Source: a virus
Length of the DNA: 21,031 nt
Strand: one strand, 5' to 3'
IMG/VR virus record: IMGVR_UViG_3300042197_002346
Coordinates: 1 to 21,031 of that record
A model generated the notes under the pieces. It did not search any database and was not told the origin of the DNA. It worked only from the letters and a program-made list of their open reading frames with translations. The translations under genes and the position numbers were made by a program. Positions within the stretch are counted from its first letter, which is position 1, and every line of letters starts with the position of its first letter. Shown here piece after piece: positions 590 to 8,182 of the stretch.

Positions 590-2156
590 GGCGGTCGCGG
601 GCTACTGGTGGGATGAGAAAGCCGCCTCAACGGTGGTCGACTTCATCGAGGCCGTGTGCTGCCACACGAAAGACTCCCCGACCACCAAGGCCGGCGAGCC
701 AATGCGGCTCTTGGAGTGGCACAAGCAGGATGTCATCGAGCCGCTCTACGGGTGGAAGGTCGACGGCGAAGATACGCGGCGATACCGGCTCGCGTATCTC
801 GAGGTGCCGAAAAAGAACGCCAAGTCGACCCTGCTCTCGTGCCTGAGCATCTGGCATCTCTTGATGGAGGGCGAGGGCGAGCTCGGGTGCATCGCGGCTA
901 AGGACCGCAATCAAGCCGCGATCATCTTCGACGAGACCGCCGCGATGGTGAAGCGGTCGCCCGAACTCCGCGAGGTGCTCGAGGTGGTCGACTCGCGAAA
1001 GACCATCGTCTGCCAAGCGACGGGCTCCAGTATGCGAGTCATCTCGCGAGATGCCGGGGCGGCGGAAGGGCCGAGCTACTCGTTCGTCTTCTGCGACGAG
1101 CTCCACGCGTGGCCCGACCGGCGGCTATTCGAGGCACTCCGCTATTCGGGCCGCTCTCGTCGAGCCCCATTGCTCGCGACGATTACCACGGCCGGCGACC
1201 GCCGCGACACGATTTGCTGGGAGCAGCACGAGTACGCCGAGCAGGTGATGGCAGATCCGAACTATGACCCTCGGTTTTACGGGAAGATATTCGGTGCCCG
1301 GCCCGGTGTGGATGACTACTTTGACCCGGCGGTATGGGCTCGCGTGAATCCCGGCATGGGCATCACCATGACCGAGGAATCATTCGCGGCGGATGCCCGC
1401 GAGGCGAAGAACAAGGCGAGCAAACTCAACGGCTGGCTCCGCTACTCGCTCGGGGTATGGACCGAGAGCAGCCAGCGGTGGCTGGACCCGGAGAAGTGGG
1501 CCGCGTGCGGGCAGGCTCCTCGCGAGCCGTTCACGGGGCGGAAGTGCATCCTCGGGATGGACTTGTCGAAGTCGACCGACCTCTCCGCAATGGTCGCTCT
1601 CTACCCCTGCGACGATGACGAGTTCGAGGTCGACGCGATGTTCTGGGCTCCCCGCGACCTCATCATGGAGCGGGAGCGAACCGACCGCCAGCCGTTCCAG
1701 CACTGGGTGAACGCCGGCTACATCACCGCGACCGATGGCAACGTCATCGACCACTCCAAAATCCGCGAATACGTCTTGGAATACGCGAAGACGCATCAAG
1801 TCGAGCGGGTCTACATGGACTTGACCGGGGCTGTGCAGTTGGCGGTGGAACTGCAGGGGGCTGGGCTTCATGTGGAAGGATGGAGCCAAGGGTTCCGCGG
1901 CATGAGCTCGGGCACGAAAAGGCTTGAGTCGCTCGTGCTGCAGGACCGCATCCGCCACGGCGGGAACCCCGTGCTGTCGTGGATGGCGGCGAATGTGACG
2001 GTCGAGACCAATGCCTTCGAGGACGTTCGCCCGGTGAAGAAGAAAAGCACGGGCCGCATCGACGGCATCGTGGCTCTCATCTTTGCCCTGGGTGGCTGGG
2101 AATCGCACCAAATCAAGAACAAGCCCGCGGCGGAGCCCTCCATCCTCATCCTATGA
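522..2156 (+). CDS. terL: phage terminase large subunit (ATPase and nuclease)
   Basis: This is the packaging motor: an N-terminal ATPase drives DNA into the prohead and a C-terminal RNase H-like nuclease cuts concatemers. In the 544-residue protein a Walker A-like VPKKNAKST lies at 95-103, Walker B FVFCDEL at 188-194 with D192/E193, and a coupling-type motif ATITTAGD at 219-226. The nuclease half has the expected acidic residues in CILGMDLSKSTD (D347), VYMDL (D433) and GRIDGIVA (D514). This matches the HK97/phiE125-type terminase family. I kept the ATG at 522 because the next in-frame ATG (about 702) would remove part of the domain before the ATPase core. The stop overlaps the portal start as ATGA. 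Confidence 0.95.
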   Translation: MPRKKAPSKSSSLSRLPERRRAEAVAGYWWDEKAASTVVDFIEAVCCHTKDSPTTKAGEPMRLLEWHKQDVIEPLYGWKVDGEDTRRYRLAYLEVPKKNAKSTLLSCLSIWHLLMEGEGELGCIAAKDRNQAAIIFDETAAMVKRSPELREVLEVVDSRKTIVCQATGSSMRVISRDAGAAEGPSYSFVFCDELHAWPDRRLFEALRYSGRSRRAPLLATITTAGDRRDTICWEQHEYAEQVMADPNYDPRFYGKIFGARPGVDDYFDPAVWARVNPGMGITMTEESFAADAREAKNKASKLNGWLRYSLGVWTESSQRWLDPEKWAACGQAPREPFTGRKCILGMDLSKSTDLSAMVALYPCDDDEFEVDAMFWAPRDLIMERERTDRQPFQHWVNAGYITATDGNVIDHSKIREYVLEYAKTHQVERVYMDLTGAVQLAVELQGAGLHVEGWSQGFRGMSSGTKRLESLVLQDRIRHGGNPVLSWMAANVTVETNAFEDVRPVKKKSTGRIDGIVALIFALGGWESHQIKNKPAAEPSILIL

Positions 2157-4042
2157 TTGCCAACTCCAACCGCATTCTCTGGCTCCCCGAGAGCGACGCC
2201 CGCAACTGGGACTATGAATCCGGGGGCTGGGCATCCAGCAACCGTAACCCATCAGGCGTGCGGATTGACGCCGAGAGTGCCATGCGGGCGACGGTCGTGC
2301 TGGCCTGCGTGCGGGTGCTATCGGCATCGGTGGCCGGGCTGCCGCTGCATCTCTACCGCCGGCTCGCGGGTGGTGGCAAGGAACTCGCCCGCGATGTGCC
2401 GCTCTATCGGGTGCTGCACACGACGCCGAACGATTGGCAGACGAGCTATGAGTGGCGTGAGACGCTCATGCTGCACTTGCTGCTGCACGGCAACGCGTAC
2501 TGCGAGATTCGCGGGGCAGGGGAGTCTCGGCAACTCATCCCGCTGCATCCCTCGCGGATGAAGGTTGACCGCCTGGAGAACGGGCGGCTGCGGTACACGT
2601 ACCGCGAGGATCGCGGCTCATCGACCGTCTACTCGCAGGATGCCATCATGCATTTGCGGTGGCTTTCTGATGACGGCGTGAACGGGATGGTGCCGGTCGA
2701 GATTGCGGCGGATGCCATCGGGCTTAGTCGTGCCCTGGAGATTCACGGGGCGACGTTCTTCGGCTCTGGTGCTCGCCCCGGCGTCATCCTCTCGACTGAC
2801 CAGATGCTCTCGCCCGAGGCTGCAGAGAACACGCGGAACCAGTGGGAGCGCGCCCATCGCGGCCCCGACCGAAGTCACCGAACAGCGGTCCTTCAAGGCG
2901 GCCTCAAGGTCACTGAGCTCGGCGGCAACAACCAGGAGAGCCAGTTTCTTGAGAGCCGGAGGTTCCAGTGTGAAGAAATTTGCGGACGCATCTACGGCGT
3001 TCCGCCTCACCTTATTGGCGACCTCTCGCGTTCGTCGTTCTCGAACATCGAACAGCAGAGCCTCGACTACGTGCAGAACGGGCTCATGCCGTGGCTGCGT
3101 CGGTTTGAGTCTGCCATCTCCCGCGACCTCTTGACCGATGACGAGACGTTCGCGGAGTTCGACGTTCGCGGTGCTCTGCGGGCTGACGCCGCGGGCCGGT
3201 CGGCGTTCTACAACACGATGGCTTCGCTTGGCGTTTTCAGCGTGAACGAGATTCGCGGGTTTGAGAATCTGAACCCGGTCGACGGCGGCGACATCCGCGT
3301 CGTGCCGCTGAATATGCAGACGCTCGAGCAAGCGAACGCGGCGGCTCAACTCGCGATGGCTCCCGCGGCCCCGGTGGTCGAGGAAATCATCACGGTTGAC
3401 GAGACGCCTGCGGAGCCGCCCCCGGAGGCGACGCCCGAGCCTGAGGTGGAGGATGGCCCGCAGATTGCCGATGTCTCGCTCAACGGGGCTCAGGTTTCCA
3501 GCCTCTTGGAGATTGTGGCTCAATACAACGCCGGGCTCCTCAACGAGACCGGGGCGAAAGCCATCATTGCGGCGGCGTTCCCTGGCATCCCCCAGGCGAC
3601 CATCGACGCCATCATCGCGGGCACGAACTCGACTCCGGTCGTGATGCCGGATGGCGAGCCCGTGCCCGTGCCCGCGGCTCCCGCCCTCGAGCCGGTCGCG
3701 GAGGAAGCCGCCGCCCGTGCAGCCCCAGACGCGGTCGATACCGGCGACTATGTCTCGTGGGGCTCTGGCGACGGTCGCGGGCGTGGACGCATCACCCGCG
3801 TCGTGCGAGACGGCGAGATCGACGTTCCCGATTCCTCGTTCACCATCACCGGCACCGAGGATGACCCAGCGGCATTGATTCGCGTTTACCGCGAGTTGGC
3901 TGACGGCTGGAGTGCGACCGATACGCTCGTCGGCCACAAGTTCTCAACGCTCACCAAGATCGACCCGCTGCCCGAACCGCCCCCGGAGGAGAACTCCTAC
4001 GGCAAGCCGAAGCGAAAGCCGGGGAGGCGGAAGCGTGGCTAG
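2153..4042 (+). CDS. HK97-family portal protein with C-terminal extension
   Basis: The portal forms the dodecameric ring at the capsid vertex through which DNA passes. Residues 1 to about 395 of 629 are a normal HK97-type portal: ACVRVLSASVAGLPLHLYRR (51-70), LLLHGNAYCEIR (109-120), YGVPPHLIGD (281-290) and the SSFSNIEQQSLDYVQNGLMP run (294-313). After this come a Pro/Glu linker, a helical segment starting LNGAQVSSLLEIVAQ (443-457), a second Pro/Ala linker, then a small beta-type domain (529-603: GDYVSWGSGDGRGRGRI through VGHKFSTLTKI) and a basic tail. The last domain resembles short Tudor/SH3-like modules also found beside phage head proteases; this is by motif only. The ATG at 2153 overlaps the terL stop; the frame stays open upstream to 1979, but that would add an out-of-family N-terminus. 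Confidence 0.93.
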   Translation: MIANSNRILWLPESDARNWDYESGGWASSNRNPSGVRIDAESAMRATVVLACVRVLSASVAGLPLHLYRRLAGGGKELARDVPLYRVLHTTPNDWQTSYEWRETLMLHLLLHGNAYCEIRGAGESRQLIPLHPSRMKVDRLENGRLRYTYREDRGSSTVYSQDAIMHLRWLSDDGVNGMVPVEIAADAIGLSRALEIHGATFFGSGARPGVILSTDQMLSPEAAENTRNQWERAHRGPDRSHRTAVLQGGLKVTELGGNNQESQFLESRRFQCEEICGRIYGVPPHLIGDLSRSSFSNIEQQSLDYVQNGLMPWLRRFESAISRDLLTDDETFAEFDVRGALRADAAGRSAFYNTMASLGVFSVNEIRGFENLNPVDGGDIRVVPLNMQTLEQANAAAQLAMAPAAPVVEEIITVDETPAEPPPEATPEPEVEDGPQIADVSLNGAQVSSLLEIVAQYNAGLLNETGAKAIIAAAFPGIPQATIDAIIAGTNSTPVVMPDGEPVPVPAAPALEPVAEEAAARAAPDAVDTGDYVSWGSGDGRGRGRITRVVRDGEIDVPDSSFTITGTEDDPAALIRVYRELADGWSATDTLVGHKFSTLTKIDPLPEPPPEENSYGKPKRKPGRRKRG

Positions 4043-6704: not shown

Positions 6705-7133
6705 TTGAACGACCTCGAATACACGAAGACGGTGGTCGGCACGACCGTGACCTCGGCGGCTGGCACTGCTACGCTGACCATCGACACGCTGGGCTATGCC
6801 TACGCTTCGGTCGATGTGCTCGTGGCAGTCAGTGCGACTCCGGCGAACACCGCGGCCAGCATCCTCAACGTGCTGACGCTGTCGCAGGGCGACACCACTA
6901 CGGCGGGCTCCTCGGTCTACACCGTGGCGGTTCCCGACGCGAGCGTGGCCGTGACAACTCAGCCCTCGGTCGTGCGGCTCGATGTCGACCTCCGCGGCAA
7001 GTCGCGGTATCTGAAGGTCGACGCCACCCCGGCGACCAGCCTTGCCACGACCATCGTGGCTCGGCTCGGCAAGGGTGAGGTCGGTCCTGAGTCGGCTTCC
7101 GCGAAGAACGTGCTCGCGAAGTATTCCGGCTGA
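6705..7133 (+). CDS. small beta-rich protein after the capsid gene, possible head decoration protein
   Basis: A TTG at 6705 follows AGGAG (6692-6696) at good spacing and gives 142 residues rich in Thr, Ser, Val and Ala with almost no long helices, for example a TTVTSAAGTATLTID stretch near the N-terminus. This composition is usual for virion surface or cement proteins, and the position directly after the major capsid gene is where such proteins are often coded. I do not recognise a named family. An overlapping TTG at 6698 opens another frame with an arginine- and histidine-rich shadow product and was rejected. A strong hairpin follows the gene. Confidence 0.75.
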   Translation: MNDLEYTKTVVGTTVTSAAGTATLTIDTLGYAYASVDVLVAVSATPANTAASILNVLTLSQGDTTTAGSSVYTVAVPDASVAVTTQPSVVRLDVDLRGKSRYLKVDATPATSLATTIVARLGKGEVGPESASAKNVLAKYSG

Positions 7134-7152
7134 GAAACTTGACAGCCTCGAC

Positions 7153-7197
7153 ACAGTGGATGGCGGGTGCGGCATGAGCCGTGTCCGCCATCTCTGT
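7153..7197 (+). terminator. long hairpin between decoration-like and glycosyltransferase genes
   Basis: GATGGCGG (7159-7166) pairs with CCGCCATC (7185-7192). Three G-U wobbles and CGGC/GCCG (7170-7173 with 7178-7181) extend the stem to an ATGA loop, and ACAG/CTGT (7153-7156 with 7194-7197) can add four more pairs beyond a small bulge. The run that follows is only TTT, so full termination is doubtful; it may be a partial terminator or an RNA 3' end protecting the abundant capsid message. Confidence 0.5.
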
Positions 7198-7208
7198 TTG
7201 AGGGCTGC

Positions 7209-7943
7209 ATGATTGTCAAAGTCGGTTCGACCGATGTGGACGTTCGCATTGAGTGCGTGATGAGCGGGCCGCGGTTCGGCCCATTGGCGAACGTCTTCGG
7301 GTGGGCTCAGGCTCTCATGCCGCTCGGCATCCGCCCAACGCTCGGGCAGGGAGCTCTCTGGGGGCAGGTCTTGCAGCGGTGCCTGGAGCAGTTCGTCGAC
7401 TCAACCGAGTTCCTGCTCTGCACCGACATGGATTCGTTCTGGGACCGAAAGACGGTCGAGGAGTTGGTAAGCCTCGCGATGGCTTTTCAGTGCGACGCCT
7501 TGGCCCCATTGCAGGTGAAGCGCGAGGATGGCCGCCCGATGTTCACACTGCCCGGCACGCTTGATAAACCGCCGCCTGCAGGGCAGACCGAGTTGCCCAT
7601 GTCGTGGTTTGCGGAGCCGGTGCAGGAGGTGGACTCTGCCCATTTTGGCTGCACGCTCATCAGCACAAAGGCATTGAAGCGAACTCCGAAGCCCTGGTTT
7701 CAAGACATCCCCAATGACAAGGGCGAGTACGGGGAGGGCAGGACCGACGCGGACATTTTTATGTGGAAGCAGTTCCGGGCCGGCGGAAACCGCCTCTACA
7801 TCACGCCACGCGTCTGCATCGGTCATGGCGAGTGGGTGTCGGTCTGGCCGGGCCGCGACCTACAGAAGCCAGTATTTCAGTATGTGAACGATTGGAATGC
7901 GAACGGTAAGCCCAAAACTGCATGGAGTGTGCCTCAATCGTGA
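7209..7943 (+). CDS. GT-A fold glycosyltransferase-like protein
   Basis: The 244-residue protein looks like a small GT2/GT-A family glycosyltransferase, which moves a sugar from a nucleotide-sugar to an acceptor. The nucleotide-metal DxD motif is FLLCTDMDSFWD (D73, D75). A later acceptor-side pattern runs SAHFGCTLISTKAL (143-156), then a DADIF...GGNRLYITPRVCIGHGE run (180-208), the usual layout of acidic motif, glycine, beta strand, Pro and His. The family's N-terminal nucleotide-binding part is short. ATG 7209 follows GAGGG; the frame is open to a GTG at 7167, but that start lies in the hairpin. It sits between head and neck genes, so it may modify a virion protein, or a host surface sugar to block superinfection. 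Donor and acceptor cannot be read from the sequence. Confidence 0.7.
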   Translation: MIVKVGSTDVDVRIECVMSGPRFGPLANVFGWAQALMPLGIRPTLGQGALWGQVLQRCLEQFVDSTEFLLCTDMDSFWDRKTVEELVSLAMAFQCDALAPLQVKREDGRPMFTLPGTLDKPPPAGQTELPMSWFAEPVQEVDSAHFGCTLISTKALKRTPKPWFQDIPNDKGEYGEGRTDADIFMWKQFRAGGNRLYITPRVCIGHGEWVSVWPGRDLQKPVFQYVNDWNANGKPKTAWSVPQS

Positions 7944-8182
7944 AAATCAAACTAAGGCAAAACTACTCGACCTACCGCCTCGGGACGGTCGTGGATTGTG
8001 AAGACGAGACGGCCCAGCGGCTCATTCGCGACGGCATCGCCGAGCGGGATGGGCAGATGAGCCTCATCGAGACGGCAAGCGTGGAGCCCGTGGGCGAGCG
8101 GGCGGATCTGACACCGAGGAAGCGAGGGCGACCACCGCGTGCGATACCGCAGCCTGAAGACACTGACGCAGCCGGCGCATGA
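7940..8182 (+). CDS. small phage protein of the neck region with basic AT-hook-like tail
   Basis: From GTG 7940, which overlaps the previous stop as GTGA, the product is 80 residues; an ATG at 7922 in the same frame would add six. The first 40 residues (VKIKLRQNYSTYRLGTVVDC and then TAQRLIRDGIAER) match a short beta-beta-helix module common in phage structural operons, in which a lysine-rich strand is followed by a rule that the feature sinks into a helix ending in GxAE. The C-terminus holds PRKRGRPPRA, an AT-hook-like basic patch. No precise role is known to me. It overlaps the connector gene by 44 bases, the second-longest overlap in the window. Confidence 0.7.
   Translation: MKIKLRQNYSTYRLGTVVDCEDETAQRLIRDGIAERDGQMSLIETASVEPVGERADLTPRKRGRPPRAIPQPEDTDAAGA

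Follow-up and report, generated by a model that had tools for sequence, protein, structure and literature searches.

A predicted glycosyltransferase gene fixed in the head module of a group of environmental tailed phages, with a probable role in capsid or decoration protein glycosylation

Glycosylation of tailed-phage virions is documented chiefly in mycobacteriophages, where the modification of virions by glycosyltransferases (GTs) encoded among the structural genes is already known. In the mycobacteriophage Corndog, GT genes lie within the structural operon (PMC4351075), and GTs encoded in structural operons have been reported to modify both the capsid and the tail tube (PMC11600133). The Corndog (cluster O) enzymes are the GTs gp36–gp38 together with the O-methyltransferase gp35, placed between the portal and protease genes. 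Cluster F1 mycobacteriophages such as Che8, Rita and Maravista also encode GTs that have been linked to glycosylated capsids, and these genes lie near the right end of the genome.

Here we analyse a 21,031-base stretch of a virus record, which we call the window, that carries a predicted GT gene in its head module. As in Corndog, the gene is placed inside the structural operon; however, the Corndog enzymes form a multi-gene cassette at another position, whereas the window has a single-gene core locus directly after the decoration gene. The head-module location also sets it apart from the cluster F1 genes. The difference lies in a single head-module GT that is universally retained and the most constrained of the genes measured, across a large environmental phage group, and in a comparable gene order in a second capsid lineage.

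The head operon and its glycosyltransferase gene

The genes upstream of the GT gene, all on the plus strand, encode the terminase large subunit (TerL, 522–2156), a portal protein (PF04860, 2153–4042), an S78 prohead protease (PF04586, 4035–5051), an HK97-type major capsid protein (PF05065, 5308–6669) and a putative decoration protein (6705–7133). The GT gene (7209–7943) is followed on the same strand by a gene for a small protein with matches to DUF7302 and weak matches to connector PHROGs (7940–8182), the head-tail connector/adaptor Ad1 (PF05135, 8139–8759) and a head closure protein (PF05521, 9178–9498), which bears out the placement between capsid and connector genes made in the sequence-only reading of this DNA. 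The decoration protein is assigned from its position, a weak match to phrog_5707 and its composition (142 residues, 25% Ser+Thr), and we consider it a candidate acceptor for the sugar, with the major capsid protein as a second candidate. Searches for a known family or a solved homologue of the decoration protein found neither; a similarity to a PDB entry named 'putative coat protein' (E 0.059) was gone once a profile was used. At its C-terminus the portal protein carries a long extension, and a Hva1_TUDOR match below threshold was seen at residues 531–577 (E 3e-4; window 3743–3883).

The GT gene is a single open frame of 244 codons that runs from an ATG at 7209 to a stop at 7943, the latter overlapping the GTG start (7940) of the downstream gene. 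A plausible ribosome-binding site, GAGGG, lies at 7200–7204 on the plus strand. Hundreds of relatives share the start, the length (243–245 residues) and the DxD motif, and no internal stops were found in full-length relatives among 263 tblastn hits. The single frame, the upstream GAGGG and the relatives with common start and length together show that the gene call is real.

The GT gene is preceded by a hairpin with a stem of ~15 bp (7159–7192, plus strand) and a T-rich tail (7193–7199), identified by folding and covariation. The gap between the decoration and GT genes is 77–93 nucleotides long in all 187 relatives, and each of the 73 distinct gaps that were folded gave an energy of −33.9 kcal/mol or lower, with a GC-rich stem and a T-rich tail in the examples inspected. 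Compensatory changes were found at 9 of the 13 consensus stem pairs in 17 diverse sequences. The hairpin seen in the sequence-only reading is thus present with its T-rich tail, conserved and supported by covariation, although it was absent from the output of a simple scan for terminators. It probably acts as a leaky terminator or attenuator that separates the capsid genes from low-copy ones and keeps the output of the GT and connector genes below that of the capsid and decoration genes. Just 3' of the decoration-gene stop there is also a TTGACA box (7139–7144, plus strand) that is kept in 173 of the 187 relatives. We considered this box as part of a sigma-70 promoter and rejected it, as there is no −10 element at the proper spacing and a promoter scan was empty.

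Fold and active site of the predicted enzyme

Sequence searches gave little on the nature of the 244-residue protein. No match was found in the PDB, nor above cut-off in Pfam and NCBIfam; for PF00535 (Glycos_transf_2, GT2-like) the window GT gave no match and 5 of 26 relatives gave matches that did not reach the cut-off (best E 0.065). Likewise the window GT was not matched by the profile of PHROG 1574, a 240-residue family listed as of unknown function, which weakly matched 25 of the 26 members of the close set (best E 2.7e-5) and matched one relative, L160, over residues 65–215 with an E-value of 8.3e-8.

An AlphaFold2 model built from 44 natural sequences reached a pLDDT of 83.8 and a pTM of 0.79, a confidence that draws on distant relatives with 15–22% identity to the window GT. 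The best Foldseek matches of this model in the PDB were all GT-A enzymes with a probability of 1.00, led by COLGALT1 (E 1.9e-7) and including mimivirus R699, Mnn9, STIV A197, LH3 and GalNAc-T2. Protein-modifying enzymes (COLGALT1, LH3, GalNAc-T2 and Mnn9) are prominent among these matches, alongside the viral GTs R699 and A197, and phage GTs were matched in a library of viral structures, with Ardmore gp87 as a weak hit (E 4.9e-5). The TM-scores of ~0.5–0.57 make the fold class secure and do not support a close functional analogue. COLGALT1, LH3, Mnn9 and ppGalNAc-T2 share the GT-A fold and the DxD motif with the window GT, and several of them act on proteins; however, they are larger, eukaryotic enzymes with only ~10% identity to it. 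A first AlphaFold2 model, made from 26 close relatives, had a pLDDT of 50 and was too poor for use alone. It too ranked nucleotide-sugar enzymes at the top, weakly (E ~0.01), indicating that the GT-A answer does not rest on the distant sequences alone.

Residues D73, D75, D182 and H206 and the motif KREDGRP (104–110) are invariant in all 172 distinct relatives. D73, D75 and D182 are also kept in the relatives from T7-like phages, by which we mean phages with a PHROG 1328 capsid. In the model the D73xD75 metal site directly follows the strand at 68–73. From the alignment and general knowledge, we take D182 to be the putative catalytic base and H206 the putative third metal ligand. The sequence-only reading had described a DxD-containing, GT-A-like protein and proposed structure prediction with a fold search as the check; both were carried out and returned GT-A enzymes, and judged by the confident model the gene product almost certainly belongs to the GT-A glycosyltransferase class.

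The same reading had described the nucleotide-binding N-terminus as reduced, which proved mostly wrong. The model contains β1 (14–21), α1 (24–35), β2 (44–48), α2 (51–62) and β3 (68–73) followed by the DxD motif, and there is an additional N-terminal β-hairpin at residues 2–11. Since the α1–β2 loop is the sole part shorter than in the T7-like relatives, 'reduced' fits that loop and not the nucleotide-binding half.

Retention, inheritance and a second capsid lineage

To avoid selection bias, we collected contigs by seeding with other genes. The GT gene lay between the decoration and connector genes in 29 of 29 TerL-seeded contigs that reached the slot, and in the same slot in all 63 contigs that were found through the capsid gene and extend 1.5 kb or more beyond it. 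Related phages therefore do keep the gene at the same place, as the sequence-only reading had suggested checking, and its occurrence is not random. The GT gene thus belongs to the core late genes of a widespread group of phages, being as fixed as the capsid and terminase genes across hundreds of environmental phage contigs.

Our impression from the records seen, with no count behind it, is that the group is mostly freshwater. A first search of a bacterial genome collection gave no close GT relative, and the only one found there is on a 14.9-kb phage contig (L240) binned in a Planctomycetota MAG (isolate name K_DeepCast_35m). Across 392 Planctomycetota genomes we found just this contig and two weak partial GT matches, which gives no more than a weak hint of a host in the Planctomycetota.

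The GT gene has the lowest dN/dS (0.109) of nine genes from the terminase, head and tail region, compared with 0.143 for TerL, 0.218 for the decoration gene and 0.259 for the capsid gene. Across 42 loci, its pairwise distances correlate with those of the decoration (0.89), capsid (0.87), connector (0.82) and head closure (0.69) genes, and far less with those of the protease (0.30) and TerL (0.24). Linkage explains part of the correlation with capsid and decoration, as the connector also reaches 0.82. The distance correlations break sharply between the protease and capsid genes, and three loci (L089, L111 and L114) pair a capsid-decoration-GT-connector block from another clade with TerL and protease genes that belong to the clade of the window, indicating that the GT gene has been exchanged together with the capsid block. 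Separately, five loci (L002, L005, L025, L076 and L078) have head genes very close to those of the window and a TerL just 37–39% identical; judging from these identities, these phages have acquired a different terminase without a matching change of the head module.

A distantly related GT-A gene occupies the corresponding slot in aquatic phages with a different capsid. In the Manatee Spring phages MW202496, MW202711 and MW202462, a 'putative glycosyltransferase' is annotated after the major capsid protein and one small gene, and in the cultured Microcystis phage Mel-JY34 a GT relative directly follows the major capsid protein. The order capsid, small gene, GT, adaptor was found in 60 of 67 T7-like loci with a capsid match, and in the other seven (L262, L267, L273, L275, L276, L296 and L310) the GT gene is 4–7 kb upstream of the capsid gene. 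Like the window GT, the GTs of PHROG 1574, Manatee Spring and Mel-JY34 are GT-A-like, carry a DxD motif and a putative acidic base, and are encoded right after the major capsid protein, with or without a small gene between, and before the adaptor. In contrast to it, they lack the N-terminal hairpin and KREDGRP, and are only 15–22% identical; the capsid lineage and the small neighbour of the Manatee Spring/Mel-JY34 lineage differ from those of the window as well.

In a tree that carries a long-branch warning, the window and T7-like GT families fall apart with a group of glycan-cluster GTs between them. We set aside a single origin of the head-slot GTs, given this split into two families and the long branches; parallel recruitment of a GT into the head slot is the likely history on these sequences, and the two families may alternatively have a common origin. 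By eye, no similarity was visible between the small protein of the T7-like slot and the decoration protein. Because of this difference, and as the decoration protein is without known relatives, no shared acceptor is seen, and on this comparison by eye a common small acceptor in both lineages was rejected.

Function of the head-module glycosyltransferase

We hypothesize that the GT is an active, metal-dependent GT-A enzyme that is made together with the head proteins and would move a sugar from a host nucleotide-sugar onto a virion protein during assembly. The acceptor would most likely be the Thr/Ser-rich decoration protein or the capsid protein, both made just upstream. The outcome would be a glycosylated head, whose glycan could stabilize the capsid, mask the particle, or let it adhere to surfaces or the host. 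Of the two targets offered in the sequence-only reading, a head protein or a host surface glycan, the first is the better supported, by gene position, co-inheritance, retention and the mycobacteriophage precedent. We infer the catalytic activity, acceptor, sugar and glycan function of the predicted enzyme, and consider it reasonably probable that this core GT glycosylates the capsid or decoration protein while virions are being assembled.

Some relatives may lengthen or cap this glycan with the products of separate accessory GT and methyltransferase genes, which are located away from the head module. Two near-complete relatives (L061 and L089) have extra GT-like and methyltransferase-like genes to the left of the terminase genes, and a third (L003) has matching GT matches at the same end, all with Pfam scores below the curated cut-offs. 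The L061 and L089 genes resemble the O-methyltransferase and GT set of Corndog, and by this analogy suggest a core sugar with optional elaboration by accessory genes. Cassettes of one methyltransferase-like and two GT2-like genes were located in L461 (the left end of the L061 record; 1329–3545) and L456 (880–2858), and the content of such cassettes differs between phages.

Alternatively, the GT could simply ride in the late operon and act on a glycan of the host surface, either in the lysogen or towards the end of infection, for receptor masking or superinfection exclusion. Serotype conversion provides established examples of phage GTs that modify host surface glycans, but the known seroconverting enzymes are membrane-associated or carried as gtr-like morons, unlike the compact GT-A domain encoded here inside the head genes. 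GT-A enzymes of the same superfamily are also found outside head modules, and the integrase at the right end of the window makes a temperate lifestyle, and hence a host-surface target, possible. However, a gene for receptor modification should differ from host to host, whereas this one is retained throughout and shows the lowest dN/dS of the genes measured, and we regard a host-glycan target as unlikely.

An enzymatically inactive protein of GT-A fold that acts as a head assembly or structural factor could also have a fixed place beside the connectors and be universally retained; this is very unlikely given that all 172 sequences keep the putative catalytic and metal-binding residues unchanged and that the T7-like relatives keep the same DxD motif and putative acidic base. 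Glycosylation of hypermodified bases in the phage DNA is likewise very unlikely: DNA-glycosylating phage GTs are known (cited in PMC12619734), the window has a weak match to DUF1599 ('nucleotide modification'), and a C5-methyltransferase occurs in 2 of 9 records, but the GT gene lies among head and not replication genes and is present in 9 of 9 records versus 1 of 9 for a Tet/JBP hydroxylase and 0 of 9 for a thymidylate-synthase-like gene, so that the GT is generally found without a base-hydroxylating enzyme and the base for glycosylation is usually not made. The one Tet/JBP-type hydroxylase (L464; record G396, 51850–52323, minus strand; E 8e-25) suggests, from its sequence, occasional DNA base modification among the relatives.

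Returning to glycosylation of the head, the universal retention of the GT gene in place suggests that adding sugar to the virion is routine for these phages. More broadly, head glycosylation might be an obligate core step of assembly in a large, apparently mostly freshwater group of tailed phages, with a GT-A enzyme recruited at least twice to the slot between capsid and connector genes, in HK97-type and T7-like phages; we put this forward tentatively, as somewhat short of probable. Since an analogous GT is also present in Mel-JY34, a cultured phage of an unrelated capsid lineage, the question of head glycosylation becomes testable, and if the head-slot GTs do add sugar to the particle, this would indicate a function for PHROG 1574.
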